Source: a virus. From it: a DNA stretch of 21,002 nt. The notes under the pieces were generated by a model that had not been told where the DNA came from, searched no databases, and saw nothing but the letters and a program-made list of their open reading frames with translations. The DNA is taken from positions 1 through 21,002 of IMG/VR virus record IMGVR_UViG_3300025879_000135; one strand, 5' to 3'. Shown here one piece after another: positions 534 to 17,824 of this stretch (positions within the stretch are counted from its first letter, which is position 1; each line of letters opens with the position of its first letter). The position numbers and the translations under genes are program-made.

Positions 534-1859
534 ATGCCAGCTATAATTCGACAAACCATGAGCAGGAATCTCGCAAGAGACCTGCTCAATGATGTTATCG
601 CTTCAACTAACGAATACTATATTGGTATTGGTAAGTCTGACGTCTTTAACGATACAGATACGGTGATCAACCCTGTAGATAGTATATTGGAGGAAAAAGA
701 GTTTCGCAATAACCTACAATCTATCAAGAAGGTTGAGGGAGCATCTTTTGCGGCCGCACGGTATAACTGGTCGTCGGGAATGGTCTACTCAGGTTGGAGT
801 GATTCAGGAAATAGCCCATACCCATCTTACGTTTTAAACGACGCTAAGGAAGTATACCTCTGTCTAGAAACAGGCATGACTGAAACTGGCGAGATCAACG
901 TTTCAACAATAGAGCCCAACTACGGTGCTCTTGGTGTCGATCATACCCAACACTTTAAAACAGGTGATGGTTATGTGTGGAAGTTCCTATTCTCGCTAAC
1001 ACCTGAAAATATCTATCAACATCTATCTTCAAATTGGATCCCTGTAGATCTTCCAGAAGAGTCACTGGCTGGCGGCGACTCAATCGAAGACTTACAGTTC
1101 CAGGTTAAGGAAGCGGCGGTCGCAGGACAAATTATTCGCGCAGAGATTGTTGATGCTGGATCCGGCTTCACTAATGCCCCTTCTATAGAGGTTCTTGGTG
1201 ATGGGACTGGAGCGACAGCTACAGCTTACATTAATAACGGCACAATCACTAAAGTTGAAATGACTAGTTATGGTCACAGCTATACGCACGCAACTCTCGT
1301 GATTACTGGCGATGGGGTTGATGGTAAATTACGTGCTGTGATTACGGACATTAATGGACTTGGCTTTGATCCTATCAATGATATGAAGACCAGCTCTATA
1401 ATGTTCAATATTAAACCTAATGGCGAAGAGGGTGGATCCTTTATTGTAGAAAATACATTCCGTCAGATGGGATTGATAAAAAATCCTCTTACTCCATCAG
1501 GTATACCATTCGCGGGTACCGCTTCTAAAGTGTTGCCTTCATTACAGCTAGCTGATACCTCACCCTTTGTGCCCGGTAAAAAGATTACAGGAATGCAAAC
1601 GGGTGCTGTGGCATATGTAAATGAATCCCAGGATAACATGGTTCACTATCATCAAAATGAATCAACCGGATTTGTTAGCTTCAATACTGGCGAAAGTGTT
1701 TCGCAAGAAGGTATAGTTGTCACTGGAGTGATCAGCGATCAGCAGGTTAAAAATGGTATCGATCGAACCTCTGGAGATGTACTTTATATTGAGAATAGAT
1801 ACCGTATTAGACGTGATGCTGAACAGCAAGAAGACATTAAAATAGTGATTACAATTTAG
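534..1859 (+). CDS. 8: Baseplate wedge protein, T4 gp8-like
   Basis: The 441-residue protein has the landmarks of the T4 gp8 baseplate-wedge family in order: 'YYIGIGKSDVF' near residue 28 (T4 'FITFGRSEPW'), an 'ARYNW' segment, 'GDGYVWKFLFSLTP' near residue 143 (T4 'GDGYVWEYLFEIPP'), and a C-terminal 'GDVLYIENRYRI...EDIKIVI' (T4 'GEMIYMENRPPI...EEINILF'). T4 gp8 is 334 residues. The extra length includes a segment around residues 200-265 with two 'GSGF/HSYT-APSIEV-GDG'-type half repeats, like small beta modules in other marine phage virion proteins. gp8 dimers join the inner wedge to peripheral baseplate proteins in T4. The start ATG has an AGGA Shine-Dalgarno at 523-526, 7 nt away. It is followed after 8 nt by the DUF4815 gene. 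The family call is by recalled motif comparison, not a search. Confidence 0.82.
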   Translation: MPAIIRQTMSRNLARDLLNDVIASTNEYYIGIGKSDVFNDTDTVINPVDSILEEKEFRNNLQSIKKVEGASFAAARYNWSSGMVYSGWSDSGNSPYPSYVLNDAKEVYLCLETGMTETGEINVSTIEPNYGALGVDHTQHFKTGDGYVWKFLFSLTPENIYQHLSSNWIPVDLPEESLAGGDSIEDLQFQVKEAAVAGQIIRAEIVDAGSGFTNAPSIEVLGDGTGATATAYINNGTITKVEMTSYGHSYTHATLVITGDGVDGKLRAVITDINGLGFDPINDMKTSSIMFNIKPNGEEGGSFIVENTFRQMGLIKNPLTPSGIPFAGTASKVLPSLQLADTSPFVPGKKITGMQTGAVAYVNESQDNMVHYHQNESTGFVSFNTGESVSQEGIVVTGVISDQQVKNGIDRTSGDVLYIENRYRIRRDAEQQEDIKIVITI

Positions 1860-1867
1860 GATAACCG

Positions 1868-4800
1868 ATGAGCAATTTCACCAGTAAGACATTTAAAGAA
1901 ACATATCGTGACTTTTATGATAAAGAAAGCGGTTATCATCGTGTTTTATTCAATTCAGGTAAAGCACTACAAGCTCGCGAACTAAATGAGCTGCAGACTA
2001 TACTCCATGAAGAGATAGCGCGGTTTGGACGTAACATCTTTCGTGAAGGAGCCACAGTTAAAGCTGGTGGCTCAATAATCGACAACTCTAAAGAGTATAT
2101 CCGGCTGCAAGCTGGTACTCTGGTGCCCGAGAATATTGTAGGACAACAGTACCAAAATGCGCAGGGAATCAAGTTCATGGTAGAAGAGTACCATGAAGCT
2201 ACTGATGTAGATCCTCAAACATTATATGTTAGATACGTCGACACCTCTGCAGTAGTTGACACGAGTGTTCCTGCACGCGTCAACCCAAGCGAGATATTAA
2301 CGCCCGTAGGAGCTACAACCTTTCCTCTTACCGTAGCTTTAGATGGAGACGTTCCTGCTGTGGGTACTGGAACTAGTATATCCGTCAACGAAGGAGTTTT
2401 CTTCGTTGCTGGCCATTTCGTTCACTCTCCTCAGCAATCAACTTACATCGACAAGTATAATTCCAAGCCAACCGTGGACTTTGGATTCCAAGTAGTGGAA
2501 AGTGTTATTACGGAAGGAGAAGACGTTACTCTATACGATAATCAGGGTGCTTTTCCAAACACCGCAGCCCCAGGTGCTCACCGATACAAGATTGAATTGA
2601 CTCCCACTACCCGCGACGCTCTCACAGAGGAAGAAAACTTTGTGTTTGTAGCTCGGATTGTCAATGGGGTAATCACGCGTGAAGTTGACGCTAAAGATGA
2701 TTATAATATCATTAACGACTTACTCGCTACTCGTACCAAAGAAGAATCGGGGGATTATGTAGCCCGCGAATTCAAAACAATAATGCAGGACAAGGATGAT
2801 CTAACTCTAAATCTAGAGGTCACCCCAGGAACTGCTTATGTCGATGGCTACCGATTAGACTTCGGTACTACTAATTTAGATGTCGGGCGCGCTCGTGCGA
2901 CCGGTACCGTAAACAATGATAGCGTAATAGCCCAATACGGTAATTACGTGATCATCGACCCTACCCAAAGTACCGGATTGAGCGAGTTAACCTCATTCGA
3001 TCAAGTTAGCTTGGGTAATGGGGGGACTGCAAACGTTCGTGCTATTGAAAACGTAGGCGGTGAATATAGGCTTTATCTTTTCAATATACAAATGCCTGTA
3101 GGGTCCAACTTCAGAGACGTAACAACTATCACTGGAGTGAGCGGTTCGTGCACATTAAAAGTTCCTGGCCTACTTGGCGGAATCGACAACACGTTACTGT
3201 TTCCACTTCCTCACTCACGTCCTCAAGGTATTGTTGATACTAATTTTACCTCACAGCGTACAATCGAAGCTGTGGCAAACAGCTCTGGTGAAATACTAAT
3301 TTCCGATACTATTAATGGGTCATATCTTCCCGTAATATTCCAGACTGGAGTAGGTCTTGCCACTGGGTGGAGTACAACATCAAATAAAATTACTGGGCTC
3401 ACGCCTTCGACTCCATACATAGTCACATATTACTTTGAATCATCTAACCCCAGGGTTAGATCTAAAATCCCAGTCACTATAACAGAAAATGTTACTATTG
3501 GTGACGGCGTAGCCCCTGTACAAGGCCCAACATTTATACAGGGTACTACAATGTGGCGAGTGGAAAACAGAACTGGAGCCGCAAGTATTGTGTGGAACGG
3601 TGAGCTGATTACTACAGCTAGTGGTGCATCAGATATCACTACCCTTAATGCTGAAGGATTCCAGTATACTCGCGGAAGCACTCAAACGCCCACGTTTACA
3701 ACTACCTTTACGGCTCCAACATCTACCAATCTAAATTATGTAGACTTCGTAGGTAACTATGTCCGACCACTAGACTTTACTAGGGTCAGAGCCAGCATTT
3801 ACGCTGCGCCGGGTTTTACGCGTGTGGAAGAAGAATCATACTCTAGATTTTTAGAGATTGAACTTAGACCAGGTGAGCCTGACTTTCTAGAGCTACCTTT
3901 CACCCGAATGGCAACTAACACTTATGCTGGTCCAGGCCGGGCAAGTACATTCGTCGGAAACTATACGCGTAGCTCCTCATATACCCGATCTAGAGCAAGT
4001 ACCTACACCGGTTACTATACTCAAGGAGAGGGAAGCACTACGGGCGAGAATTATACCTATTATGCCGTATCTCGTCAAGCGTTGGCCAGTAGCCTAGATC
4101 TCTCCGCTATCACGTTAGATTATGCTGATGGCACCAAATTAGTTCAGATCGTTGATGCTTCAGGTAACGACGTTACTGGGTCATTTGAGTTTGATGGCGG
4201 TCAGCGTGATAATTATTACGGACCAATTAAACTTAGACTGAAATCTGGATTAACTGCAGAAGCAGGTTCTCAGTATACTGTTATTTTTCAGCACTACTTC
4301 CATGGGGACGGGGACTATTTCAGTGTCGAGTCGTACCCTACAATTTACAGTAACGTACCGTCATATAAAACATCTTCTGGTGATACAATACAACTGACTG
4401 ATGTATTAGACTTCCGTCCGGTAATTTTAGCGGATGGTATTCAGTCGAGTAGCATCAACACACTACCAAGAAACAAAAGTATTATCAGCGTCGACGCTAC
4501 TTACTACTTACCGCGTATAGACCTTCTGGTAGCTAATACTCTAGATTCGAGGGGTAGACTTGGTACTGGACGCCTACAAATAATTGAAGGTGAGGCGGCG
4601 CTAGATCCCCGTCCACCTCAAGTGCCGGTTGGTTCGCTATCATTATTCCAGATAGATCTGAATGCTTATACAGCAGATAAGAATGATTTATCTACTACTA
4701 GGATTCCGCACAAACGGTTCACTATGCAAGACATTGCAAAGTTGGAAGACCGAATCGATACCTTGTTTGAGCTTACCACACTTAGCTTACTCGAAGCAGA

Positions 4801-7204
4801 TACAGCAACACTGGCGGTATTGGACGAGCTCGGTAATAACCGTACCAAATCAGGATTCATAGCTGACAACTTCAGATCACTAAACTTCTGTGATTTGAAT
4901 AACCCCGATTATCGCGCTTCAGTTGAACCAACAAGTGGAGAGTTGATGCCGTCGTTTAGAGAGAACTCTGTGCGTCTCGCTATGAGGCAAAGCTCGGCTG
5001 TTAAGAAAGGGGATGTTGCAGTACTGCCTCATGTTAACACGTTACTAGCTAGTCAGCTACTGGCCACTGGCAGAATGAATATCAATCCGTTCGCTGTAAT
5101 TACGCAAACCGGTCACATGACATTATCTCCAGCTACGGATGAGTGGGTAGAAGTACGTCAGCTGCCCGAGATTATGCAATCCAACGTACGTCGAACCAGC
5201 ACCGATAGAACTGGTGGTGGGCGCGGTGGTAGGGTTACATCGCGAATCGTAGAAACCACTATCCAAGAGTTTTTAGGAGAGCAGGTTGTTGACGTTGAAG
5301 TAGTGCCGTTCATGAGATCTCGTGAAGTTTATTTCCGGGTCGAAGGACTGAGACCAAAAACTAGAATGTTTGCCTTCTTCGGTAACCAATCTGTGCAGCC
5401 ATGGGTGCGTCAAGAAAATGTATTTAGACTTTTCTCCGATAACCCAAGAGAGTCCGGAAGTGAGTTTGCTAGCGCTAGCGGACACCCGAATGGGTCTACA
5501 GAGCTAGTAACAGACGACAACGGTGTATTGATTGGGTCATTCTTTGTACCAAACACCCCCAGTATGTCATTCCGTACTGGTCAACAAGAATTTAAATTAC
5601 TTGACGTTAGCATCAACGATGACGATATGGCTATTTCATCATCGAGAGCTAACTATGAATCGGTCGGTCGTATTGATGCGGTACAACGCACCATTCGCAG
5701 TACACGAATCGTAGAAACTATCTCTGAGCGCATAGATCCTCTCGCTCAAACGTTCTTCATCGATCAAGTCGAGAATCCTAATGGGTTGTTCCTAACCCAT
5801 GTTAAAGTATTCATGGAGAGTAAAGATAGCGCGATTCCGTTACAAGTACAAATCCGACCCGTAGAAAATGGCATACCAACTACACGAATCGTCCCTGGAT
5901 CAAATAAGTTTGTATCCCCTTCGAATATCAACGTGGTGCCATTAACGCCCGATACTGATATAGCAGATGTTCGATTGTTTGGTGGTACAGATATTGATTT
6001 CGATGAACCTGTGTATTTAACCCCAGGTGAAGAGTATGCCATCGTACTGTTAGCCGAATCGGTTGAATACAACGCGTACGTTGCTGAAACCTACGAGTTT
6101 ATCCTTGGGCCGAATCAGCGAGAAGGTAGAGTGGATAAGCAGCCAACTCTTGGCTCACTATTCTTATCACAGAATGGTTCTACTTGGACACCCGATCAAA
6201 CGAGAGACTTAATGTTTGAGTTGTATCGCGCTGAGTTTGATACAACTGCTAATGTAGTGTTATCTAACACAGAAGTACCTAAGATTACATTAGGTCCAAA
6301 TCCTATCTCAGTTGAGAAGAATAGTGCGTTAGTAAACATTGCCCATCAGGGTCATGGATTCAACGCAAATGACGAAGTTGAGATTAGTGGCGTCCAGGGT
6401 ACTATTGGAGGAATCCCTGCAGCAAGTTTAAATAGTACCCATCTAATAGCAAGTGTGTCTTGGGAAGGATATCAGATTAACGTGGGGACAGTAGCCACCG
6501 CTTCTGTACTAGGAGGAGGCTCTTCAGTTGTAGCAAGTGAGCAGATCATGATTGACGAGATGACTCCTAACATTGCCAACATCACTCCTAACGGAACACG
6601 TATAACGGCAACAGTAACTCAAACATCTGGAGCCTCGTTTGGAGGAAACCGTAACAACCCTCTGTATAATGGTGCATATTCATCTGTGGGCTCAAAGCAG
6701 GTATTCATCAACGATCTCAACCTGAACGATAGACCGACGATTATAGCATCGCCTGATGACATGACCTTCAACATCACTCTATCAACCACTGATACTAAAG
6801 TATCTCCCTTGATTGATCTTCAACGGGTATCAGTAATGACACTAGAGAACGTTATTGATATGGGAACGGCTGCTCAGCATATTACTACACCTGTAATCCT
6901 AGATGAGTCAGCTGTAGGGCTTAAAATACTATTTTCGGCCCATCGGCCAAGTACAGTCGAGTTTGAGGTTTATGTTAAAACAGCAGCAGACGAATCTTCA
7001 CTAGAGGTATCTGAGTGGGTGTTGGTTGACGCTGATAATAACATACCGAGTGACGAGAGTCGAAACGTGTTTAGAGAATATTCATACACCATAGACACTG
7101 ATGATCAATTCAATATATTCCAAGCTAGGGTTGTAATGCAATCAACCAACTCTTCGAAGATTCCTATCATCAGCGACTTCAGAACAATAGCGTTGGCTGT
7201 TTAA
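1868..7204 (+). CDS. Giant DUF4815-type baseplate/tail structural protein with Tyr/Arg repeat insertion
   Basis: This is a 1778-residue virion protein. The N-terminus has the hallmark DUF4815 segment 'FNSGKALQARELNELQTIL' (about residues 28-46) and 'FREGATVKAGG' (58-68). 'TPGTAYVDGYRLDFG', near residue 318, is also typical of the family. In T4-like marine phages, genes of this type lie next to gp8 and are annotated as baseplate or tail-fibre proteins. The rest is beta-rich with no transmembrane segment. The C-terminal 150 residues, including 'FRTIALAV' at the end, look like the usual family end. Residues about 619-730 hold an unusual insertion of Tyr/Phe-Arg-Gly tetrads ('FVGNY', 'YTRSRASTYTGYYT') also found in three other genes here. 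The Shine-Dalgarno AGGA overlaps the gp8 stop, implying coupled translation. The exact baseplate position is unknown; gp10-like or gp7-like are possible alternatives. Confidence 0.8.
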   Translation: MSNFTSKTFKETYRDFYDKESGYHRVLFNSGKALQARELNELQTILHEEIARFGRNIFREGATVKAGGSIIDNSKEYIRLQAGTLVPENIVGQQYQNAQGIKFMVEEYHEATDVDPQTLYVRYVDTSAVVDTSVPARVNPSEILTPVGATTFPLTVALDGDVPAVGTGTSISVNEGVFFVAGHFVHSPQQSTYIDKYNSKPTVDFGFQVVESVITEGEDVTLYDNQGAFPNTAAPGAHRYKIELTPTTRDALTEEENFVFVARIVNGVITREVDAKDDYNIINDLLATRTKEESGDYVAREFKTIMQDKDDLTLNLEVTPGTAYVDGYRLDFGTTNLDVGRARATGTVNNDSVIAQYGNYVIIDPTQSTGLSELTSFDQVSLGNGGTANVRAIENVGGEYRLYLFNIQMPVGSNFRDVTTITGVSGSCTLKVPGLLGGIDNTLLFPLPHSRPQGIVDTNFTSQRTIEAVANSSGEILISDTINGSYLPVIFQTGVGLATGWSTTSNKITGLTPSTPYIVTYYFESSNPRVRSKIPVTITENVTIGDGVAPVQGPTFIQGTTMWRVENRTGAASIVWNGELITTASGASDITTLNAEGFQYTRGSTQTPTFTTTFTAPTSTNLNYVDFVGNYVRPLDFTRVRASIYAAPGFTRVEEESYSRFLEIELRPGEPDFLELPFTRMATNTYAGPGRASTFVGNYTRSSSYTRSRASTYTGYYTQGEGSTTGENYTYYAVSRQALASSLDLSAITLDYADGTKLVQIVDASGNDVTGSFEFDGGQRDNYYGPIKLRLKSGLTAEAGSQYTVIFQHYFHGDGDYFSVESYPTIYSNVPSYKTSSGDTIQLTDVLDFRPVILADGIQSSSINTLPRNKSIISVDATYYLPRIDLLVANTLDSRGRLGTGRLQIIEGEAALDPRPPQVPVGSLSLFQIDLNAYTADKNDLSTTRIPHKRFTMQDIAKLEDRIDTLFELTTLSLLEADTATLAVLDELGNNRTKSGFIADNFRSLNFCDLNNPDYRASVEPTSGELMPSFRENSVRLAMRQSSAVKKGDVAVLPHVNTLLASQLLATGRMNINPFAVITQTGHMTLSPATDEWVEVRQLPEIMQSNVRRTSTDRTGGGRGGRVTSRIVETTIQEFLGEQVVDVEVVPFMRSREVYFRVEGLRPKTRMFAFFGNQSVQPWVRQENVFRLFSDNPRESGSEFASASGHPNGSTELVTDDNGVLIGSFFVPNTPSMSFRTGQQEFKLLDVSINDDDMAISSSRANYESVGRIDAVQRTIRSTRIVETISERIDPLAQTFFIDQVENPNGLFLTHVKVFMESKDSAIPLQVQIRPVENGIPTTRIVPGSNKFVSPSNINVVPLTPDTDIADVRLFGGTDIDFDEPVYLTPGEEYAIVLLAESVEYNAYVAETYEFILGPNQREGRVDKQPTLGSLFLSQNGSTWTPDQTRDLMFELYRAEFDTTANVVLSNTEVPKITLGPNPISVEKNSALVNIAHQGHGFNANDEVEISGVQGTIGGIPAASLNSTHLIASVSWEGYQINVGTVATASVLGGGSSVVASEQIMIDEMTPNIANITPNGTRITATVTQTSGASFGGNRNNPLYNGAYSSVGSKQVFINDLNLNDRPTIIASPDDMTFNITLSTTDTKVSPLIDLQRVSVMTLENVIDMGTAAQHITTPVILDESAVGLKILFSAHRPSTVEFEVYVKTAADESSLEVSEWVLVDADNNIPSDESRNVFREYSYTIDTDDQFNIFQARVVMQSTNSSKIPIISDFRTIALAV
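3722..4060 (+). repeat. Tyr/Arg/Gly tetrad insertion within the DUF4815 protein
   Basis: About 110 residues of the DUF4815 protein change character abruptly to degenerate tetrads: 'YVDFVGNYVRPLDFTRVRAS', 'YTRSRASTYTGYYT'. Aromatic or Arg residues recur every four positions, as in the repeat proteins at 9014, 9550 and 11817. The flanking sequence is ordinary beta-rich virion protein, so the segment looks like an inserted module rather than part of the core. Confidence 0.7.
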
Positions 7205-7406: not shown

Positions 7407-9002
7407 ATGGCTTTTCAAATAATCAATCTAGCTGATCACATCAACGCCGCTGTTGATAAGATGAATGAAAACTTCGACCTTATCAGCTGGACGGCGGATA
7501 GCGATGCCATCAACAATACCATCAATAATTATATTGATAGCGATGTCATCAACAATATTATCAATAATTATATTGACAGTAGCGTAATTAATCAATTCAT
7601 AAACAGCGACACTATCAATAACTACCTCGATCAAAGTACTATAATTAATATTATAGATTCGGATTTCATACAATCCATAATACTTAATTTGAATCTTGAT
7701 GGTTCTATAGACTCGAGTCAATTTTACAGTATATTAGCTGAGACTGGCTTAGTAGCTAGAGTAGATAATGTTGAAGGGGGCTTAGTATTATTAGCCCAAG
7801 ACTATACCAATCTATCAACCAACTACACTAATCTAGATTCAGATGTATCAGCACTGTCGACTGCTTATAGTGGGTTAACTTCCCAGATATCTGTGCTCGA
7901 TAGTGGCATTGAGGTATTATCACAGGATCTGGTGAGTTTAGAAGCTCAATTTACTGGCAGTATCGAATTGGATTCCGCAGTAATTGTGCAAGCGATTGGT
8001 GGCGCACTCACCACATTAGATACTAGAATAAATGCTAACTCAGATGAGATCAGTGTTGTCTCTCAGGCCGTTACGAACTTATCAGCTGACCTATCATTAC
8101 TTGATAGTACATTATCCCCCCTAATACAAGCTAATTCAACAGCAATTTCTAATCTTGTAGCATCTGCCACAGCTAACTCGGATGAGCTTGAAGTACTATC
8201 CGGCCGGTTTGATAGCTTCCAAGTAACTCTACAAAATGCCATTGATAGTGGATTAGAGATCAACCCAGATGATGTTGCTGCAGCAGTGGGTGGTATTACT
8301 GATGATTTATATACTAGAATTTACGCAAACTCTGATAAAATCGGAGTTGTATCTGCATCAATAACAAGCCTAAACTCTAAGCTAACGTTACTCGATAGCG
8401 CTGGGGCATTAACCGATGTAATTGCAGATGCGGTGTCCGATCTCAGAGCCGAAGTTGTAGCAGGCGACAGTGGCAATTTAAATGCTATTTCCCAGTTAGA
8501 GGTAACTCTTAACAACAAAATCGATAGTGATGTCCAAACTGCGTTGACAACATTATCAAATACATATGTTACGGATGGAGAGCTCACTACAGCTGTACAG
8601 AACGCAACCACATCACTAACACAAACGATTAATAATACGGTAGCAACCGCCGAGCAGACCCTCAACACTAGAATAGACGGTATCGATCTTAGTGTTGAAG
8701 TTGGGTATACTCTAAACTTAGATGCTAATGGTCATGTAGCTGGTATTGAATTTAACAATAATGGCGAAACTGCCGCTATGTCCATCTTTGCTGATAAGTT
8801 TGCTATAGTAAACTCATCGGACAGTGCTATTCGGCCATTTACCGTCGACGGTGACCAGATTCTACTATCAAACGCTACTGTTACAGGATCCCTAAATATA
8901 AGCTCTAGTAGTACGAACGGGTCCATGACAATGACTAATGACTTAATGCAGATATTTGATGCTGGTGGTAACCCCCGCGTTAGATTTGGCCGGCTAGCAT
9001 AA
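7407..9002 (+). CDS. Fibre-like virion protein with DUF1983-type C-terminal domain
   Basis: The 531-residue protein has three parts. Residues 1-30 ('DHINAAVDKMNENFDLIS') resemble the N-terminal attachment helix of phage fibre-like proteins. Residues 31-90 are Asn/Ile/Asp-rich repeats ('DSDAINNTINNYI', then 'DSDVINNIINNYI'), encoded by a 39-nt tandem duplication. Residues 100-430 are long Ser/Thr/Leu/Asp heptad-like stretches ('LDSDVSAL', 'LLDSTLSPLI', 'ANSDEISVVSQAVTNL') that suggest a trimeric coiled-coil shaft. From Val432 to the end is a DUF1983-type domain ('NLDANGHVAGIEF', 'FADKFAIVN', 'LSNATVTG', 'IFDAGGNPRVRFG') closely similar to the end of the first gene in the window. The ATG directly follows the previous stop, with GGAG upstream. 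The likely role is a tail fibre or tail-tip component that uses its end domain as a knob or adaptor; the exact role is inferred. Confidence 0.75.
   Translation: MAFQIINLADHINAAVDKMNENFDLISWTADSDAINNTINNYIDSDVINNIINNYIDSSVINQFINSDTINNYLDQSTIINIIDSDFIQSIILNLNLDGSIDSSQFYSILAETGLVARVDNVEGGLVLLAQDYTNLSTNYTNLDSDVSALSTAYSGLTSQISVLDSGIEVLSQDLVSLEAQFTGSIELDSAVIVQAIGGALTTLDTRINANSDEISVVSQAVTNLSADLSLLDSTLSPLIQANSTAISNLVASATANSDELEVLSGRFDSFQVTLQNAIDSGLEINPDDVAAAVGGITDDLYTRIYANSDKIGVVSASITSLNSKLTLLDSAGALTDVIADAVSDLRAEVVAGDSGNLNAISQLEVTLNNKIDSDVQTALTTLSNTYVTDGELTTAVQNATTSLTQTINNTVATAEQTLNTRIDGIDLSVEVGYTLNLDANGHVAGIEFNNNGETAAMSIFADKFAIVNSSDSAIRPFTVDGDQILLSNATVTGSLNISSSSTNGSMTMTNDLMQIFDAGGNPRVRFGRLA
7497..7574 (+). 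repeat. 39-nt tandem duplication in the fibre gene
   Basis: Two copies (7497-7535 and 7536-7574) encode the 13-residue units DSDAINNTINNYI and DSDVINNIINNYI. They differ at only a few bases. Shorter decayed copies ('DSSVINQFI', 'NSDTINNYL') follow immediately, suggesting growth by repeated slippage or unequal exchange. Confidence 0.85.
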
Positions 9003-9013
9003 AGGATTAAAAA

Positions 9014-9550
9014 ATGGCTGATTTTACAGTATCGTATACAAGGACATTATCATTCGCAGGGAACTACGTAACGTCGTTCACTCGAAATCGTGTATCTTCG
9101 TATAGCTCCGATACAACAAATACATTTTCTGCAACCTTTACGCGACTGCGCCCGTCAACCTATACCAGGAATAGACAAAGCACTTATTCCGGAACATTTG
9201 TTAGAACTTTTTCTGGGTATTATAGTAGAGCGTTTGCGGGTAATTATTCCCAATCATTTGCTGGGACTTATACTAGAACGTTCACCGTTTCTAGAGTCTC
9301 TGCATACACCAGAGACAGAACACAAAATTTTACTAGAACACGAACGTCGGTAACGAGCTCTCGACTTTTCGTTCGTTCATTTTCCAGATATCAATACTTT
9401 ACCCCATTTTACACTAGAGTGGGTAGTCAAGGATATTTTGCTGCGGTGTATACGGCTTATTATGGTGGGACCTACAGTAGGACTATATCGCGTACTGGTA
9501 CAATAACATCTATATTATTCACCGCTCCTAATGGGGGGATTGAGCCGTAA
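9014..9550 (+). CDS. Small Tyr/Arg/Gly tetrapeptide-repeat protein
   Basis: The 178-residue protein is made almost wholly of tetrads of the form [Y/F/R]-[S/T/A/V]-[R/G/S]-x: 'FTRNRVSSYSSD', 'YTRNRQSTYSGTFVRTFSGY', 'YSRAFAGNYSQSFAGTYTRT'. The repeats fade after about residue 118 into a Tyr/Phe-rich tail ending 'ITSILFTAPNGGIEP'. No signal peptide, membrane segment or Cys is visible. The Shine-Dalgarno AGGA (9004-9007) lies 6 nt before the ATG. The stop overlaps the next start by one base (TAATG), implying coupling. Arg is encoded mostly by AGA/AGG, unlike the repeats of the 11817 gene. I do not recognise a characterised family. Position among fibre genes suggests a virion surface or adhesive component. 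Confidence 0.75.
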   Translation: MADFTVSYTRTLSFAGNYVTSFTRNRVSSYSSDTTNTFSATFTRLRPSTYTRNRQSTYSGTFVRTFSGYYSRAFAGNYSQSFAGTYTRTFTVSRVSAYTRDRTQNFTRTRTSVTSSRLFVRSFSRYQYFTPFYTRVGSQGYFAAVYTAYYGGTYSRTISRTGTITSILFTAPNGGIEP

Positions 9551-10401
9551 TGCCTGAATCCTATTATACAAGAACCTCCACATTTACTAGAATTAGCACC
9601 CGAACAGGAGGCACTACAGCTGACTTTTCAGGTACTCCAAGAGTCGTAGATTATACTAGGACTAGAGCAGGTACTGCTAGTACTCGACTAATATCATATG
9701 CGAATTTTGAGGATGGTAACGAAAGTACTGCGTTTTATTCTAGGTCATTCGTCGGCGATTTCATTGGAAACTTCACCGGTAATTATGTTAGATCGTTTAG
9801 TAGATCTAGAACCGTAGAGTCAATTGGGTATTACTCGAGAAACTATATTGGGTATTACACAAGAGCGTACCAAGGGTTTTATACAGTATCATCAGCTGGG
9901 GGATATTCGCGGTTATTTGCCGGTAACTATGCCCGATCATTCCTAGGAGTGTATTCCAGGGGGTACAGCGGATTATATACTAGAAGCTCTACGAACACAT
10001 TTAGTGGAACATTCACCAGAACTTCTGTAGGCGACTATACAAGAACTACGACTCGTGTTAGTACAATTTCTGGTGGTACTGGAGCTCCTCCTACGTATAC
10101 TGGTGCGCCAGCATCAGATGCTGAATATGGTCTGGTGGTATATGGACCAGATGGTGTAACTGAAATTATCAACCCTACAACTAGAGTATTAAACCTAGTA
10201 TTTTACGGTAGTGTTTCGGTTGGACCATACTCAACGACAAATATTACAATAGAAGATGTAGGGGATCCTACCAAAGTTATTGTAGCGTTTGGTTTCAGGT
10301 ATACTTCTATAAGCTATTCTGTATCAGGCAACACACTGACAGTGATAAACGATCGCTCTACCGCATCAGCTCCAGTTATAATAGCAGCGAGGATAGCATA
10401 A
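9550..10401 (+). CDS. Tetrapeptide-repeat protein with C-terminal 'YGLxV' domain
   Basis: This is a 283-residue two-part protein. Residues 1 to about 175 are Tyr/Phe-Arg-Gly tetrads ('SFVGDFIGNFTGNYVRSFSR', 'YYSRNYIGYYTRAYQGFYT', 'LFAGNYARSFLGVYSRGYSG'). After a short Gly/Pro/Ala linker, residues about 190-283 form an ordinary globular beta domain beginning 'AEYGLVVYGPDGVTEIINPT' and ending 'SAPVIIAARIA'. The same opening ('YGLVVKSFDG...EIIQLDTERGLVNYVI') begins the next gene, so the two share a domain. The start codon overlaps the previous stop and follows a G-rich run (ATGGGGGGATT) that can act as Shine-Dalgarno. A plausible reading is a fibre whose repeat shaft carries a receptor-binding or capping tip; this is inference. 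Confidence 0.75.
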   Translation: MPESYYTRTSTFTRISTRTGGTTADFSGTPRVVDYTRTRAGTASTRLISYANFEDGNESTAFYSRSFVGDFIGNFTGNYVRSFSRSRTVESIGYYSRNYIGYYTRAYQGFYTVSSAGGYSRLFAGNYARSFLGVYSRGYSGLYTRSSTNTFSGTFTRTSVGDYTRTTTRVSTISGGTGAPPTYTGAPASDAEYGLVVYGPDGVTEIINPTTRVLNLVFYGSVSVGPYSTTNITIEDVGDPTKVIVAFGFRYTSISYSVSGNTLTVINDRSTASAPVIIAARIA

Positions 10402-11135: not shown

Positions 11136-11603
11136 ATGACAACAGTAGTAAAATATGTAGCTAAAATTGAGGAAGATACTGGCCGTATCATGTGTGTAGA
11201 ATTTCCTCAAGCATCAGTACCACCAGAAGGTACTGAAAATGGGATTACCACAGTTCACGTGACGCCTGATAGAATGACAGAAGGCTTCATGGGCCCTGGT
11301 TGGAACCCCTTACTGCATTTTTGGGATGGATCATCGTTCGTATATGTAGGAAAACCTCCAAATCGTCACGCTATATATAATGGTACTGATTGGGAGTGGG
11401 ATGCTGTGGCATTCATGAACGACATCAAGGGTATACGTAACAATAAACTATACAAATCGGATTGGACTCAATCTCCCGATGCACCATTAACAGAAGAGGA
11501 AAAGCAGGCGTGGGCAGTATATAGACAACAACTACGCGACTTTCCGTCAACATTAGACAACCCTGCTAGTTTAGAGGAATTGGTATGGCCCATGCAACCA
11601 TAA
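11136..11603 (+). CDS. Tail-fibre assembly chaperone-like protein
   Basis: The C-terminal half of this 155-residue protein carries a pattern common in phage tail (fibre) assembly chaperones: 'IRNNKLYKSDWTQSPDAPLT' followed by 'EEKQAWAVYRQQLRDFPSTL' and ending 'ELVWPMQP'. In such families 'R..LL..SDWTQ.PD.PL....+.AW..YRQ.LRD.P.....WP..P' is the typical signature. The N-terminal half is a small beta-rich region with several Trp ('GPGWNPLLHFWDGSSFVY', 'YNGTDWEWD'). Chaperones of this kind are usually encoded beside the fibre they help fold, which fits either the fibre set just upstream or the repeat protein downstream. GAGGA at 11120-11124 is the Shine-Dalgarno, 11 nt before the ATG. The family match is from memory of the pattern. 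Confidence 0.7.
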   Translation: MTTVVKYVAKIEEDTGRIMCVEFPQASVPPEGTENGITTVHVTPDRMTEGFMGPGWNPLLHFWDGSSFVYVGKPPNRHAIYNGTDWEWDAVAFMNDIKGIRNNKLYKSDWTQSPDAPLTEEEKQAWAVYRQQLRDFPSTLDNPASLEELVWPMQP

Positions 11604-11790: not shown

Positions 11791-11818
11791 ACTTTTAAAA
11801 AAGAGAGCGATTAAAAGT
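11791..11818 (+). promoter_or_regulatory. Hairpin enclosing the ribosome binding site of the giant repeat gene
   Basis: ACTTTTAA (11791-11798) pairs with TTAAAAGT (11811-11818), an 8-bp stem with a 12-nt loop. The loop holds the likely Shine-Dalgarno (AAGAGAG, about 11801-11807) and the right arm includes the first two bases of the GTG start at 11817. Both arms are in the late transcript. The stem is AT-rich, so it may be marginally stable. Translation damping is possible but unproven. Confidence 0.45.
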
Positions 11819-14800
11819 GTCAGCATCTAGTATCCCATTAAAAATACTGAATTCAGATGGTGACCTGAAGGAATTTACGCCGTTAGAAGAAAATTATCTG
11901 GCGTATGCAGTAGGACAAGCATTACTAAACCCAACTGATGTTGGTTCACTAACGCTTAGCCCAACGGGAGTTGCTGTCGGTTCTTATGTTGATACATACT
12001 TCAACCAGAGCCCCGGAACTCACCCTGCCAGCCAAATCACTTCTGGTTCAACTACTACGACCCTTCGTCAGGTAGCGGGACCAGCAACTGAAAGCGGCCA
12101 AAACATTCCTGTAGGTTACTACGCCCAAGATCCTAATCCCGGTTTCTACGAAATGGTAGACGCGGACTTATCCAACTTAGCTAATCGTGTACTCGGTAAC
12201 ATGGTCCAGAATGACTATATCGGTACCTATCGATTGGCAGCATCTTCACCTGGATCAGATTACTCTATCCATATAGCGAACGTCTTCACTGACACGCGTG
12301 GGGATGGGGTATCTACAAACTATCACATCTATATTCGTAACTCAATGACGGCCGTTGGAGCTGTTCGTCCCGTTCGCGTACGATACGACGGCTCGAACTT
12401 TGGTGGCTTCCAAGAGATGACTGATGCTGAGATCCAAGACGTGTTGGGTCAGCGTATCAAGACATTGAGATCGTCAGTTGGTAGTATTGGTAGCTATCAA
12501 TTACTTTCTTCAGCTCAAGGCGCACCCATCGGTGGTGGTACGTGGAAGGTTGTTGGTACAGCCGTAAACACCAAGCTAACGACAGCTCAAATCGATTATA
12601 CGCGCAGCCGCAACTCGAGCTACGTACAGACCCGAGTTTCAGCCTACACGCGTAACAGAGTGTCTACCTTTAGTGGTACATATTCACGCACTACAAGCCA
12701 AGTATTTGTCGGCAATTACGCTGGTAACTATAGCCGCGACTTCGCCGGCAATTATTCACGAGGTTTTGTAGGGGAATATACTGGCGATTTCGTAGGAGTA
12801 TATTCTCGTTTACGCTCTTCAGCTTATTCTGATAACTATGCCCGTAATCGTATTTCGACTTACGCTGGCACATATTCACGCAATCGTGTAAGTACATATT
12901 CGCGTAACCGAGTCTCAGCCTATGCTGGTACGTATGCTCGTAATAGGGTGTCGTCTTATGCTGGCACATATTCGCGTAACCGCGTCTCAGCCTATGCAGG
13001 CACGTATTCACGCAATCGCGTAAGTACATATGCTCGTACTCGTCTCACGGCATTTTCTGCCGACTACACAGGCGTATACACGCGTGCACGCGCATCTGTT
13101 TATACACGAGCTCGCGTTTCAACTTACTCTGCTGACTACACTGGCACGTATTCCCGTGCTCGGGTCTCTGCATACTCTCGCGCGCGCACATCGGCGTATG
13201 CCCGTGACCGTGTAACCGACTTTGCTGGTAACTTTATTGGTAACTATAGCCGCAACTTCGTAGGAGATTACTCTCGCGGGTTTGCTGGTAACTACGCGCG
13301 CGGCTATGCTGGTAACTTTGTCGGTAATTACGCCACAACATATACTGGCGACTTCGTAGGTAACTATGCACGTGGGTTTGTCGGCGATTATGTTGGCGAC
13401 TTCGTAGGCAACTATGCTCGTACCAGGGTAACGAACTATACGCGCGATGACGCTGCGACATTAACCTTTACTCGAGTACTAGCGTATACTGGTAACTATT
13501 CAACTGCCTATACCCGTGACCGTGTAACCAACTTCACCACGAGTCCATCGTATTCACGTACACGTATTACAAACTATGTAATATCGCCATCGTATTCACG
13601 TACACGTATTACAGACTATGCAATATCGCCATCATACACGCGCGCTCGTGCCGCTACGCTAGATTATACGCGTACCCGAGCTGCGAGCTACACTGGTGAC
13701 TATGCCCGTACAGCATACTATACTGGCAACTATGCTCGTGTAGCATACTATACTGGCAACTATGCTCGTGTATATTACTATACCGGTAACTACGCTCGTT
13801 CATTGACTTACACTGGTGACTTCGTAGGTAACTATACTAGAACTGGTGCAGTAGCTTATACCCGTAATAGGGCTGCTATAGGGTATTATTCGCGAAATCT
13901 GTCGTACTCTAGAACTGGAACATCATACTACGTTGGTCCTCCAAGTCCACCAATAGGGCCAGATCCTGGTGATCCTCAGATATACACACGAACCGCCACT
14001 ACATATTATTCGCGAACTGTAATATACACGCGCACAGTAACATACGCTGGGAACTATGCTCGTAATGTAACATATGATTATACTAGGACGAGAGCTACTA
14101 ACTATACCACCGTCCTAGGTTACTCACGCGATCGTGCTTACTATCCAGCGTATTCTCGTGATCGTGCTTACTATCCAGCGTATTCTCGTGATCGTGCTTA
14201 CTATCCAGCGTATACTCGAGTTCGCGCAGCTAGCTATGTAGGAAACTATACTAGGGCAGTAACATACACTGGCAACTATGCTCGTACGTTAATTTATACT
14301 GGCGACTTCGTAGGTAATTATGCTCGTACGTTAACTTATACTGGCGACTTCGTTGGCAACTATGCTCGTACGTTGGTTTATGCAGGAAACTTCGTAGGCA
14401 ACTACGCTAGAGCTTATGTTGCGGACTATACACGTACTGGGTATTATACTCGCGTTAGCTCGTACATCGGGGATTTCGTCGGTGACTTTGTTGGAGAGTA
14501 TGCTAGAACTTCGGTTCGTACAAGCGTTCGTACCCGTAGTAGCGCATATGCTCGTACTCGTATTACAGACTACGTTGGCGACTTTACACGTACAAGTACG
14601 CGCACTCGATACTCCGCGTACGTTCGTACTCGCGTTTCAGCTTATGCTCGTACTCGTTCTAGTGCTTACGCTAGAGATCGTGTAACGAACTTTGCTGGTA
14701 ACTTCATTGGCAACTATGCTCGTACCTTCGCAGGTAACTATGCTAGATCGTTTGCTGGTGAATACGTAGGTAACTATGTTGGCAATTATGCGAGAGCATT

Positions 14801-15386
14801 TACTGGAAATTATGCTAGATCGTTTGCTGGTGAATACACAGGTAATTATGTGGGCAACTACACCGGCGACTTCGTTGGCAACTACAGTCGTGCATTTGCT
14901 GGTGAATACTCAGGTAACTACAGCAGAACATTTGTTGGTGAATACTCCGGCACATACAACAGAACATTTGTTGGTGAGTACTCTGGTAACTATACTCGCG
15001 GATTCGCTGGAAACTATTCTCGTGGCTTTGCTGGCGAGTATATCGGAAACTATTCGCGCGGATTCGTTGGGGATTATGTAGGCAACTACAGTCGTGCATT
15101 TGCTGGTGAATATACAGGCAACTACACTAATGTATTCTCACGCACCCGCGTTAGCGCATACTCTCGTGCGCGTACATCATCGTATACCGATGATTATGCC
15201 CGTAACCGTGTATCAACATATGTAGGTGAATACGTTGGGGCATACGCCAGAGGCTATGCTGGAAACTACTCTCGAGACTTCGTGGGCAACTACTCACGAG
15301 CGTTTGTTGGTAACTATGTTGGTATGACTATCCAGCCAACGTTCAACATTGTTGAGACGTATACGTTGTATGTAAGGGTTGCCTAA
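11817..15386 (+). CDS. Giant Tyr/Arg/Gly tetrapeptide-repeat virion protein
   Basis: The protein has 1189 residues and a GTG start, and is preceded by an exact late promoter. Residues 1-260 are a normal globular head ('LKEFTPLEENYLAYAVGQAL', 'GSYVDTYFNQSPGTHP', 'SGSTTTTLRQ') like N-termini I recall in T4-like marine phage structural proteins. The head includes an internal duplication (residues 109-145 and 197-233: 'GFYEMVDADL' against 'GFQEMTDAEI'). From Tyr261 to about Tyr1167 the chain is tetrads [Y/F/R]-[S/T/A/V]-[R/G/S]-[N/D/T/A], in two main flavours: 'YSRNRVST' and 'YARGFVGD'. Register is kept for roughly the first 70 tetrads, then two-residue spacers appear. A Pro-rich break lies at residues 707-721. 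The last 20 residues ('MTIQPTFNIVETYTLYVRVA') are non-repetitive. No Cys or membrane segment is seen in the repeats. Function is unknown; a fibre shaft, whisker or adhesive surface protein is plausible. Confidence 0.85.
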   Translation: MSASSIPLKILNSDGDLKEFTPLEENYLAYAVGQALLNPTDVGSLTLSPTGVAVGSYVDTYFNQSPGTHPASQITSGSTTTTLRQVAGPATESGQNIPVGYYAQDPNPGFYEMVDADLSNLANRVLGNMVQNDYIGTYRLAASSPGSDYSIHIANVFTDTRGDGVSTNYHIYIRNSMTAVGAVRPVRVRYDGSNFGGFQEMTDAEIQDVLGQRIKTLRSSVGSIGSYQLLSSAQGAPIGGGTWKVVGTAVNTKLTTAQIDYTRSRNSSYVQTRVSAYTRNRVSTFSGTYSRTTSQVFVGNYAGNYSRDFAGNYSRGFVGEYTGDFVGVYSRLRSSAYSDNYARNRISTYAGTYSRNRVSTYSRNRVSAYAGTYARNRVSSYAGTYSRNRVSAYAGTYSRNRVSTYARTRLTAFSADYTGVYTRARASVYTRARVSTYSADYTGTYSRARVSAYSRARTSAYARDRVTDFAGNFIGNYSRNFVGDYSRGFAGNYARGYAGNFVGNYATTYTGDFVGNYARGFVGDYVGDFVGNYARTRVTNYTRDDAATLTFTRVLAYTGNYSTAYTRDRVTNFTTSPSYSRTRITNYVISPSYSRTRITDYAISPSYTRARAATLDYTRTRAASYTGDYARTAYYTGNYARVAYYTGNYARVYYYTGNYARSLTYTGDFVGNYTRTGAVAYTRNRAAIGYYSRNLSYSRTGTSYYVGPPSPPIGPDPGDPQIYTRTATTYYSRTVIYTRTVTYAGNYARNVTYDYTRTRATNYTTVLGYSRDRAYYPAYSRDRAYYPAYSRDRAYYPAYTRVRAASYVGNYTRAVTYTGNYARTLIYTGDFVGNYARTLTYTGDFVGNYARTLVYAGNFVGNYARAYVADYTRTGYYTRVSSYIGDFVGDFVGEYARTSVRTSVRTRSSAYARTRITDYVGDFTRTSTRTRYSAYVRTRVSAYARTRSSAYARDRVTNFAGNFIGNYARTFAGNYARSFAGEYVGNYVGNYARAFTGNYARSFAGEYTGNYVGNYTGDFVGNYSRAFAGEYSGNYSRTFVGEYSGTYNRTFVGEYSGNYTRGFAGNYSRGFAGEYIGNYSRGFVGDYVGNYSRAFAGEYTGNYTNVFSRTRVSAYSRARTSSYTDDYARNRVSTYVGEYVGAYARGYAGNYSRDFVGNYSRAFVGNYVGMTIQPTFNIVETYTLYVRVA
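13542..13625 (+). repeat. 42-nt tandem repeat in the giant gene
   Basis: Two near-identical 42-nt copies (13542-13583, 13584-13625) encode SPSYSRTRITNYVI and SPSYSRTRITDYAI. A diverging third copy follows (SPSYTRARAA). The unit is three tetrads plus a Ser-Pro-type dipeptide and marks the point where the tetrad register first breaks. Confidence 0.85.
13701..13820 (+). repeat. 30-nt tandem repeat in the giant gene
   Basis: Four 30-nt units (13701, 13731, 13761, 13791) encode variants of YARVAYYTGN. Copies one and two differ at three bases and later copies diverge further. Each unit is two tetrads plus a two-residue spacer. Confidence 0.85.
14130..14213 (+). repeat. 30-nt perfect tandem repeat in the giant gene
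   Basis: Copies at 14130-14159 and 14160-14189 are identical. A third from 14190 is identical through 14213 and then diverges. They encode DRAYYPAYSR. The identity over more than two copies indicates very recent expansion or assembly-sensitive slippage. The unit lacks Gly and contains Pro, unlike neighbouring tetrads. Confidence 0.9.
14295..14420 (+). repeat. 42-nt tandem repeat in the giant gene
   Basis: Copies at 14295-14336 and 14337-14378 encode YTGDFVGNYARTLT and YTGDFVGNYARTLV. A more diverged third (14379-14420) encodes YAGNFVGNYARAYV. The unit is three tetrads plus a dipeptide. Confidence 0.85.
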
Positions 15387-15503: not shown

Positions 15504-15965
15504 ATGGCTACTAAAAAATGGCTTGATAATGCGTTCTGGGAAACAGATGAAAAGCAACAGCTTAATTGTATTCTAGAAATCGTTGACGATGAGGGGCGCG
15601 AAGTTCGACAGGTTATGAAGCTGAATCGTACAGACCGTGAGGGTAATCCTAACGCGATGTTCGAAGAGGTAGTTGAGGCGCTGGGCGAAGAAGCAATTGA
15701 TCGAGAGACTTCAGATCGAGTTACGCGGAAGAAAGCAGAAGCTGATGAGAATAAGCAGCGCGACTTAGAACATCAGAAAGCGCGTAAGCTCGAGAAGTTA
15801 TTTAACTATAAATTAGAAGCATTTGAAGTTGATGAGATTAAAGCATCTAAAAACCGTGCGCTCAAGGGTAAGCTGCGCCGCGCTAAATCGAGAATTGAAG
15901 TTGATTTATATTCAATTATGATTTTACAAGAAGCTCTTGAGGCCGGGACTGATGGAAAAGAGTAA
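15504..15965 (+). CDS. Charged helical protein of unknown function
   Basis: The 153-residue protein is rich in Glu, Lys, Arg and Asp. Residues 1-60 ('KKWLDNAFWETDEKQQLNCI', 'VDDEGREVRQVMKLNRTD') look like a small alpha/beta region. Residues 65-150 are predicted mostly helical ('VTRKKAEADENKQRDLEHQK', 'IKASKNRALKGKLRRAKSRI'). I recall similar proteins of this size in T4-like marine phages without assigned function. GGAG at 15490-15493 is the Shine-Dalgarno, 10 nt before the ATG. It overlaps the glycosyltransferase start by 14 nt, so the genes are translated together. No good late octamer precedes it; TATATAAC near 15452 is only a poor match. Confidence 0.7.
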   Translation: MATKKWLDNAFWETDEKQQLNCILEIVDDEGREVRQVMKLNRTDREGNPNAMFEEVVEALGEEAIDRETSDRVTRKKAEADENKQRDLEHQKARKLEKLFNYKLEAFEVDEIKASKNRALKGKLRRAKSRIEVDLYSIMILQEALEAGTDGKE

Positions 15966-16677
15966 GGGATTTGTTATAGTTGCGAGCAGAAATCGCAACT
16001 TTTATCTATACGCTATTAATCTCGCTGAATCCATTAGAGATTATTATGAAGACTGTAACATTTGCTTAGTTACAGAGGAAAGGTTTATTGACGATCGTGG
16101 TTACGATGTTGCTGATGATGTTATCTTCTGCGACGACCACTATCGCGCTAAGTTATGGGGTATGGCGAAATCACCATATGACATAACAATGTATATTGAT
16201 GCTGACATGGAATGTGAGCACGAAGATATTATTAAAGTATGGGATGAGATGAAAGACTATGATATGGTTTTCTCTGAACTTACTGATGATCGTGACTACA
16301 TCTACGCTGAGCGGGATTTTGACACCCCAGAGGGTAAATCTAAATTCATACTTTGCGGTGGTGTTTGTTTATACGATATGTCTAAGCCCATTGTTCGTGA
16401 GTTCATGCAAGATTGGTGGGATTTGACTCATAAGCAGATGAACGATACTTGGTGGCCTGATGGTTATGCTGACTCATTAAAATCTTGGGATCAGTTTAGC
16501 TTGTGGTGGTTGACCAATAAAGAAGAAAAATATAAAGATCTTAACATTGGAATCTTCGATGACGATTTAAGATGGAACTATTACAACGCACTAAATTGGG
16601 CGAGAACTCAGCCAGAAGGACCCGTAATTTTACGTCACTTCTCTGCTGGCTTAGAAAAGGATAAACCGATCTTATGA
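15952..16677 (+). CDS. GT8-like glycosyltransferase
   Basis: This 241-residue protein has features of nucleotide-sugar transferases of the GT-A fold. The N-terminus is beta-alpha ('GFVIVASRNRNFYLYAINLA'). A DxD motif lies in 'YIDADMECEH' (Asp83-Ala-Asp85), which binds the metal and nucleotide-sugar. A Gly-Gly-rich segment 'FILCGGVCLYD' and a C-terminal 'HFSAGLEKDKP' (His229) resemble the HxxGxxKP motif of GT8-type enzymes. It should transfer a sugar in the host cytoplasm; the donor and acceptor cannot be told. The ATG at 15952 has TTGAGG 9 nt upstream and overlaps the previous gene by 14 nt. A TTG at 15937 is a less likely start. Its stop overlaps the next start (ATGA). Its place in a late cluster beside the giant Tyr/Ser/Thr-rich protein makes virion glycosylation a possibility. 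Confidence 0.75.
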   Translation: MEKSKGFVIVASRNRNFYLYAINLAESIRDYYEDCNICLVTEERFIDDRGYDVADDVIFCDDHYRAKLWGMAKSPYDITMYIDADMECEHEDIIKVWDEMKDYDMVFSELTDDRDYIYAERDFDTPEGKSKFILCGGVCLYDMSKPIVREFMQDWWDLTHKQMNDTWWPDGYADSLKSWDQFSLWWLTNKEEKYKDLNIGIFDDDLRWNYYNALNWARTQPEGPVILRHFSAGLEKDKPIL

Positions 16678-17464: not shown

Positions 17465-17824
17465 ATGTCAACCACTTACGAAGATTTCACTATAGCTCAA
17501 GGATCCGATGTTGCGTTCCAACTCGAGCTCGTAGAACTTGACGGTTCCACCAAAAACCTCACTGGTTATTCAGTACAAGCTAAGATGAAAAAGTCTTATA
17601 ACAGCGATACTGATAAAACTATTGACTTCACGGCCATTGTTGCACAACCTGCGACAGATGGTGTCGTAGTACTAAGTCTCACGAACGAACAAACAGATAC
17701 ACTATCTACCCGCGGTAGATACGTCTATGACGTTGAGCTCAACTATGTAGATAGTGATGGCTACACGATCGTAGAACGTATCCTAGAGGGAAAGATAAAG
17801 GTATCTCCGTCTGTAACGAGGTAG
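17465..17824 (+). CDS. Small beta-sandwich virion protein
   Basis: The 119-residue protein has the pattern 'FTIAQGSDVAFQLELVELDG', 'NLTGYSVQAKMKKSYNSD', 'GVVVLSLTNEQT', 'GRYVYDVELNY', 'VERILEGKIKVSPSVTR'. This 'QGSD..LTGYSV.A.+.....YDVE....RVLEG...V.P.VTR' layout is common in small proteins of T4-like marine phages and resembles the N-terminal beta domain of BppU-like baseplate/fibre proteins. The length fits a single Ig-like sandwich. AGGA 6 nt before the ATG lies in the hairpin arm described separately. The next gene starts 4 nt after the stop. It is likely a virion or fibre-adaptor protein. Confidence 0.7.
   Translation: MSTTYEDFTIAQGSDVAFQLELVELDGSTKNLTGYSVQAKMKKSYNSDTDKTIDFTAIVAQPATDGVVVLSLTNEQTDTLSTRGRYVYDVELNYVDSDGYTIVERILEGKIKVSPSVTR

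Follow-up and report, generated by a model that had tools for sequence, protein, structure and literature searches.

A giant protein of period-4 repeats with a strict neighbour grammar, probably a tail fibre or adhesin, in marine T4-like phages

Pentapeptide, hexapeptide and RTX solenoids and collagen are all short-period repeat proteins, some of which occur in phage fibres. We analysed a 21,002-base IMG/VR viral record (IMGVR_UViG_3300025879_000135; the whole stretch is called the window here) with a T4-like baseplate and tail region, in which the open reading frame (ORF) 11817-15386 encodes a giant protein consisting mostly of four-residue units, or tetrads. Its period is 4, not the 3, 5, 6 or 9 of those solenoids and collagen, and it gave no family match in Pfam, PHROGs or NCBIfam and nothing useful in a sequence search of the PDB, as expected from an earlier inspection of the letters (the sequence-only reading), which had described a Tyr/Arg/Gly code with no recognised fold. 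The same gene order, tetrads, C-terminal end and downstream genes are found in Phage C48C1 (OQ984149, listed under Kyanoviridae without a host), where the N-terminal domain of the homologue, WJE88074.1, is 63% identical; that protein differs in being nearly three times longer (3,347 aa), in carrying several globular inserts, and in being annotated only as hypothetical. Cyanophage S-RIM2 protein SWTG_00067 (NC_020859, residues 1540-1670), annotated as structural, contains period-4 xTGN repeats (GNVTGNLTGDVTGN) with aliphatic V or L where the tetrads have Y, F or R, no YxR or RxS units, and another gene context. As only the period is in common, we rejected the S-RIM2 matches as homologues; the protein is perhaps an analogous stalk. 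A PDB search with the xTGN repeat matched TLP-4 (PDB 9ikm; XTASXTAS in the PDB sequence), the title of which, as cited in PMC12967142, speaks of glycofibrils of 'linear tetrapeptide repeats' coated by glycans. The sequence-only reading knew of no characterised period-4 fold of this composition; the remark needs qualifying, since the structure of TLP-4, a fibre that likewise repeats every four residues, has been solved. Because its composition (XTAS) differs, we did not file the phage stalk, which contains very little proline, as a TLP-4-like member, and any likeness would be an analogy of working, not of descent. No description of the tetrad repeat was found in the literature, and both the repeat and its pairing with the enzyme genes described below appear to be new.

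The tetrad pattern, [Y/F/R]-[small]-[R/G/S]-[N/D/T/A], runs from Tyr261, encoded at position 12597, to about residue 1176. Both this start and the position given for the end of the repeat, 15323 (residue 1169), were correctly placed by the sequence-only reading, and the approximately 70 units it had counted in unbroken register proved to be 71, after which the register shifts. Among these 71 tetrads, position 1 is Y, F or R in 98.6% and position 3 is R, G or S in 87%. The longest in-register run of Y, F or R at position 1 was 62 units, whereas none of 5,000 shuffles exceeded 13; when position 3 was constrained as well, the figures were 36 and 7. Beyond about residue 545 there are repeated register shifts, often of two residues each, and a Pro-rich break occurs at about 712-724. 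Over 929 residues the stalk has 14 prolines, a net charge of +70, 20% Tyr plus Phe, 12.7% Arg, and almost no Lys or Cys. Identity between units is raised at lags of 2, 3 and 6 tetrads. A simple 12-residue coil is unsupported, as lags 3 and 6 were raised and lag 9 was not. Alternation of two faces along a strand, from which the sequence-only reading derived a possible beta-solenoid or stacked-sheet fibre, holds within the window; strict parity of the aromatic residues over the whole stalk, to which a period-2 peak pointed, fails across the family.

Besides Phage C48C1, dozens of marine viral contigs carry loci of this family, gathered by scans with the N-terminal domain and two repeat segments, and thus the absence of homologues from other phage late regions, which would have counted against the sequence-only reading, is not what we found. 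The proteins range from about 830 to 3,350 aa and keep a constant plan, in which a domain of about 250 residues, beginning at an equivalent M/V-SASSIPLK, is followed by a variable tetrad stalk and an ETYTLYVRxA end; both ends are common to dozens of homologues and variation is confined to the stalk. This is the conserved N-terminal and variable distal arrangement looked for in a T4-like fibre. Within the N-terminal domain a unit of one helix plus strands occurs three times (GDLKEFTPLEENYLAYAVGQ / GFYEMVDADLSNLANRVLGN / GGFQEMTDAEIQDVLGQRIKT), the repetition being visible in the sequence, and AlphaFold2 modelled residues 2-220 with a predicted local distance difference test score (pLDDT) mostly of 80-93. 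We presume this domain to be the virion anchor; its model gave no credible match in PDB-VIA or BFVD, a weak negative because the model had a long unfolded tail. Non-repeat modules are set into the stalk of some longer relatives: an FG-GAP beta-propeller at residues 215-600 of the L053 protein (E 2.7e-31), a GLEYA/PA14 lectin-like insert at residues 1230-1508 of L073 (E 2e-5, just under the cut-off), a module in L064 that Vibrio jumbo phages also have in their virion structural proteins, and several domains in the C48C1 fibre (L002, OQ984149, 12203-22246; 3,347 aa), for five of which Pfam searches gave nothing.

To describe the order of the units, we counted their neighbours over 42 non-redundant proteins of the family. 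The sequence-only reading had seen two flavours alternating in blocks; the units are really of four types, YxR, YxG, FxG and RxS, with near-forbidden junctions between them. F at position 1 is followed by G at position 3 in 1883/2120 units and R by S in 1328/1405, while Y is followed by G or R. From one unit to the next, G at position 3 almost never precedes R (4/3416), the next unit starting with Y or F instead, and R at position 3 rarely precedes Y (104/1930), the next unit starting with F or R. The window protein obeys identical unit and junction rules. Neither composition nor a sticker-spacer chain would easily account for such rules, and this strict neighbour grammar argues for an ordered packing of the stalk.

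The giant gene lies between a tail assembly chaperone gene and an LtfC-like gene, downstream of gp8-like and DUF4815 genes; together with the tail-tip gene, these neighbours place it in a tail module. We propose that in a group of marine T4-like phages its product serves as a giant tail fibre or baseplate adhesin. The N-terminal domain would fix the fibre to the tail, and the tetrad array would form an ordered, length-adjustable stalk, its face written in interchangeable YxR, YxG, FxG and RxS units, on which longer relatives would bear lectin-like or beta-propeller modules. Two enzyme-like proteins encoded downstream, a GT-A-like putative glycosyltransferase (GT) and a protein with a predicted 2-oxoglutarate (2OG) Fe(II)-oxygenase fold (OX), would probably modify the stalk post-translationally at many repeated sites. 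The outcome would be a stiff, decorated fibre to reach or hold the host surface. We give this reading as a whole, a giant modular fibre or adhesin with an ordered stalk modified by the neighbouring enzymes, a probability of roughly 0.4. Its parts differ in strength: that the protein is a tail fibre or adhesin, anchored through its N terminus and with a long, length-variable stalk able to carry binding modules, is quite probable, whereas hydroxylation and glycosylation of that stalk, suggested by synteny, fold and the repeated substrate, is at best a tentative proposal. The furthest form, a decorated cable with a new ordered period-4 fold and a Tyr/Arg/Gly code without proline, serving as a mass substrate of a co-encoded hydroxylase and glycosyltransferase, and so a stalk coated with sugars and hydroxylated, much like the glycofibres of algae or those of the collagen type, we consider unlikely.

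The genes for a 153-aa protein, possibly an assembly factor, GT and OX follow the fibre gene in every locus with enough downstream sequence, including the divergent L078, where identity in GT and in OX is down to about 30%. GT has invariant D88 and D90, so that a DxD within an alpha/beta sequence, looked for in a GT-A enzyme, was found. Sequence profiles of GT and OX gave no convincing PDB relative; OX was identified solely through its predicted fold. The AlphaFold model (pLDDT 90) matched Pseudomonas putida prolyl 4-hydroxylase (P4H) by Foldseek with E 4.4e-6, and PHD2 and P4H by VIA with Z 11.4 and 10.9; the top matches were 2OG oxygenases, and the double-stranded beta-helix of that class is present. 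Compared with prolyl 4-hydroxylases and PHD2, OX has the same predicted fold at about 12% identity, with HxN rather than HxD, and the phage stalk is proline-poor. The invariant residues, read from the sequence and not from coordinates, are H138-x-N140, H199 and R207-x-T209. We assessed co-occurrence in the best 80 of 393 GT relatives and the best 80 of at least 538 OX relatives, and found tetrads no more than 5 kb away in 74/80 and 71/80 loci, respectively. The remaining loci are mostly cut off upstream; two with full flanks, L247 and L256, have tetrads further off on the same contig. Among 50,697 phage records, the fibre N-terminal domain, the 153-aa gene, GT and OX occurred in C48C1 only, and the LtfC-like neighbour occurred in 45.

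Several results weigh against the proposed reading. The case for order in the stalk comes from the grammar alone, and the AlphaFold2 monomer gave the repeats no fold or secondary structure, with a pLDDT of about 27. GT is called a putative glycosyltransferase from its DxD motif and from PF00535 (Glycos_transf_2) matches that fell below the cut-off in 13/21 members (best E 0.0046), and its profile did not match an annotated glycosyltransferase of C48C1. In all members of the OX family the presumed Fe-binding motif is HxN, not HxD/E, which makes its activity uncertain. The co-occurrence comes from one related phage group, in which it may reflect shared ancestry instead of function, and the loci ranked as the best 80 are at the same time the closest to the window.

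The best surviving alternative, possible though somewhat less so than the reading we propose, is that the tail fibre or adhesin has an ordered beta stalk, either a monomeric solenoid or an intertwined trimer, but that this stalk is unmodified, with GT and OX acting on, for example, host lipopolysaccharide (LPS) or another tail protein. In pelagimyophages, the glycosyltransferases encoded in the host-recognition region are usually read as LPS modifiers (PMC7029224). The two-face alternation in the window and the raised identity at the lags given above would fit beta packing. Furthermore, C48C1 has an OX-like paralogue, 31% identical, between a DnaB-like helicase gene and a NifU-like gene (L019:40139-40792, OQ984149), and because this lies elsewhere in the genome the family also occurs away from fibres. 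What an unmodified stalk leaves unaccounted for is the constant place of GT and OX next to the tetrad fibre, seen in all loci that allowed the comparison.

The failure of the structure prediction called for by the sequence-only reading, which yielded no structure for the repeats, is what would be expected of a disordered, sticky Tyr/Arg adhesive, with evenly spaced stickers, Gly/Ser/Asn spacers and strong positive charge, that binds an anionic cell surface or polymerises; the charge, the Arg content and the near lack of Lys and Cys given above also agree with it. However, a sticker-spacer chain needs neither strict register nor near-forbidden junctions, and the prediction used a single chain and a shallow 29-row alignment, a set-up that often fails for trimeric fibres. 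Between an ordered period-4 beta fibre, a trimer and disorder, the grammar favours order and the monomer prediction gives it no support, and we regard the disordered adhesive as unlikely.

At the DNA level, identical stalk peptides differ in codons (FVGN, in 11 copies, has 8 DNA spellings) and the codon entropy of the repeats resembles that of the rest of the genome. Codon identity at lags 2, 3 and 6 only just exceeds the baseline set by codon usage and does not surpass that at other lags, indicating that recent duplication is not the main cause of the lag identity and, together with the codon differences, that the repeats did not arise by recent DNA slippage. The alignable repeat stretches, compared with L003 and L004, gave ratios of nonsynonymous to synonymous polymorphism (pN/pS) of 0.13-0.35; codon diversity and this purifying selection show that the pattern is kept at the protein level. 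Short DNA tandem arrays are present, with periods of 24, 30, 36, 42 and 72, and the L003 fibre, 87% identical in the N-terminal domain, is yet nearly twice as long; such arrays probably drive length change of the stalk. They are the one point in favour of chance low complexity or DNA-level tandem expansion without a selected protein product, an explanation that the codon and pN/pS data and the conservation of both ends and grammar in dozens of relatives already refute.

Features of the window are given in the table. Three points go beyond the sequence-only reading: the other tetrad proteins, the presumed N-terminal anchor domain, and the genes for hydroxylase-like and GT-like proteins next to the fibre. 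The true start of the GT-A-like gene is probably the ATG at 15952.

Table. Positions of the fibre gene, its domains and neighbouring genes in the window
Feature	Position	Strand	Remark
gp8-like gene	534-1859		
DUF4815 baseplate-region protein	1868-7204		
Tetrad-like stretch within DUF4815 protein	3686..4033	+	
Tail-tip-like protein	7407-9002		
178-aa protein	9014..9550	+	tetrads over nearly whole length
283-aa protein	9550..10401	+	tetrads in first two-thirds, non-repeat C-terminal part
Tail assembly chaperone (PF16778)	11136..11603	+	directly upstream of giant fibre gene
Giant tetrad fibre protein (putative), 1,189 aa	11817..15386	+	GTG start
Conserved N-terminal domain of giant fibre	11817..12578	+	about residues 1-254
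Tetrad repeat stalk of giant fibre	12597..15344	+	residues 261-1176
Conserved C-terminal end of giant fibre	15345..15383	+	ETYTLYVRVA
153-aa conserved protein	15504..15965	+	always directly downstream of fibre
GT-A-like putative glycosyltransferase (GT)	15937..16677	+	invariant DxD (YIDADMECEHED)
2OG-Fe(II)-oxygenase-fold protein (OX), candidate protein hydroxylase, 235 aa	16674..17381	+	predicted fold
LtfC-like / L-shaped tail fibre assembly protein	17465..17824	+	phrog_1084, phrog_3304

Besides the fibre, tetrads occur in three more window proteins, those at 9014-9550 and 9550-10401 and the DUF4815 protein, whose tetrad stretch is missing from the C48C1 homologue. At five other loci (L048:2-4102, L050:1-4335, L058, L066 and L076:4378-8475) a different upstream gene has long tetrad tracts between unrelated end domains, and the repeat is therefore common to several tail genes; the tetrads look like a structural module of which several tail proteins make repeated use. 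At L074:3-5903 the tetrads are extremely regular (YARNFAGQYTGQ), and after them come dozens of copies of a 12-residue unit, YEGLYERQQDIT, equal to three tetrads. Many loci carry two tandem fibre paralogues. Two tandem tetrad fibres with the 153-aa gene, GT and OX were also seen in L096 (JAAXIF010000028.1), binned as a Sphingobacteriales metagenome-assembled genome, a contig that is most likely a phage genome within that bin. The ORF of the second fibre at L072:5083-8600 falls into two parts (815 and 368 aa), through a frameshift, a genuine interruption or misassembly of the repeats. Photosystem genes bear on the host: seven long contigs that carry the fibre locus had no Photo_RC (photosystem reaction-centre) genes; a cyanophage origin is therefore unlikely and a heterotrophic host more likely.

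Since the repeat is widespread among marine viruses' contigs but missing from every family library searched, annotation overlooks a large class of phage fibres. With its strict code of four units, the stalk offers a clean rule for designing long protein fibres. Should the neighbouring enzymes modify the stalk, the phage would itself encode the hydroxylation and glycosylation that decorate its fibre. One of the 2OG oxygenases that are common in marine phages, and that have been discussed in connection with DNA repair and nitrogen metabolism (PMC3037559), would then have a concrete, testable role.

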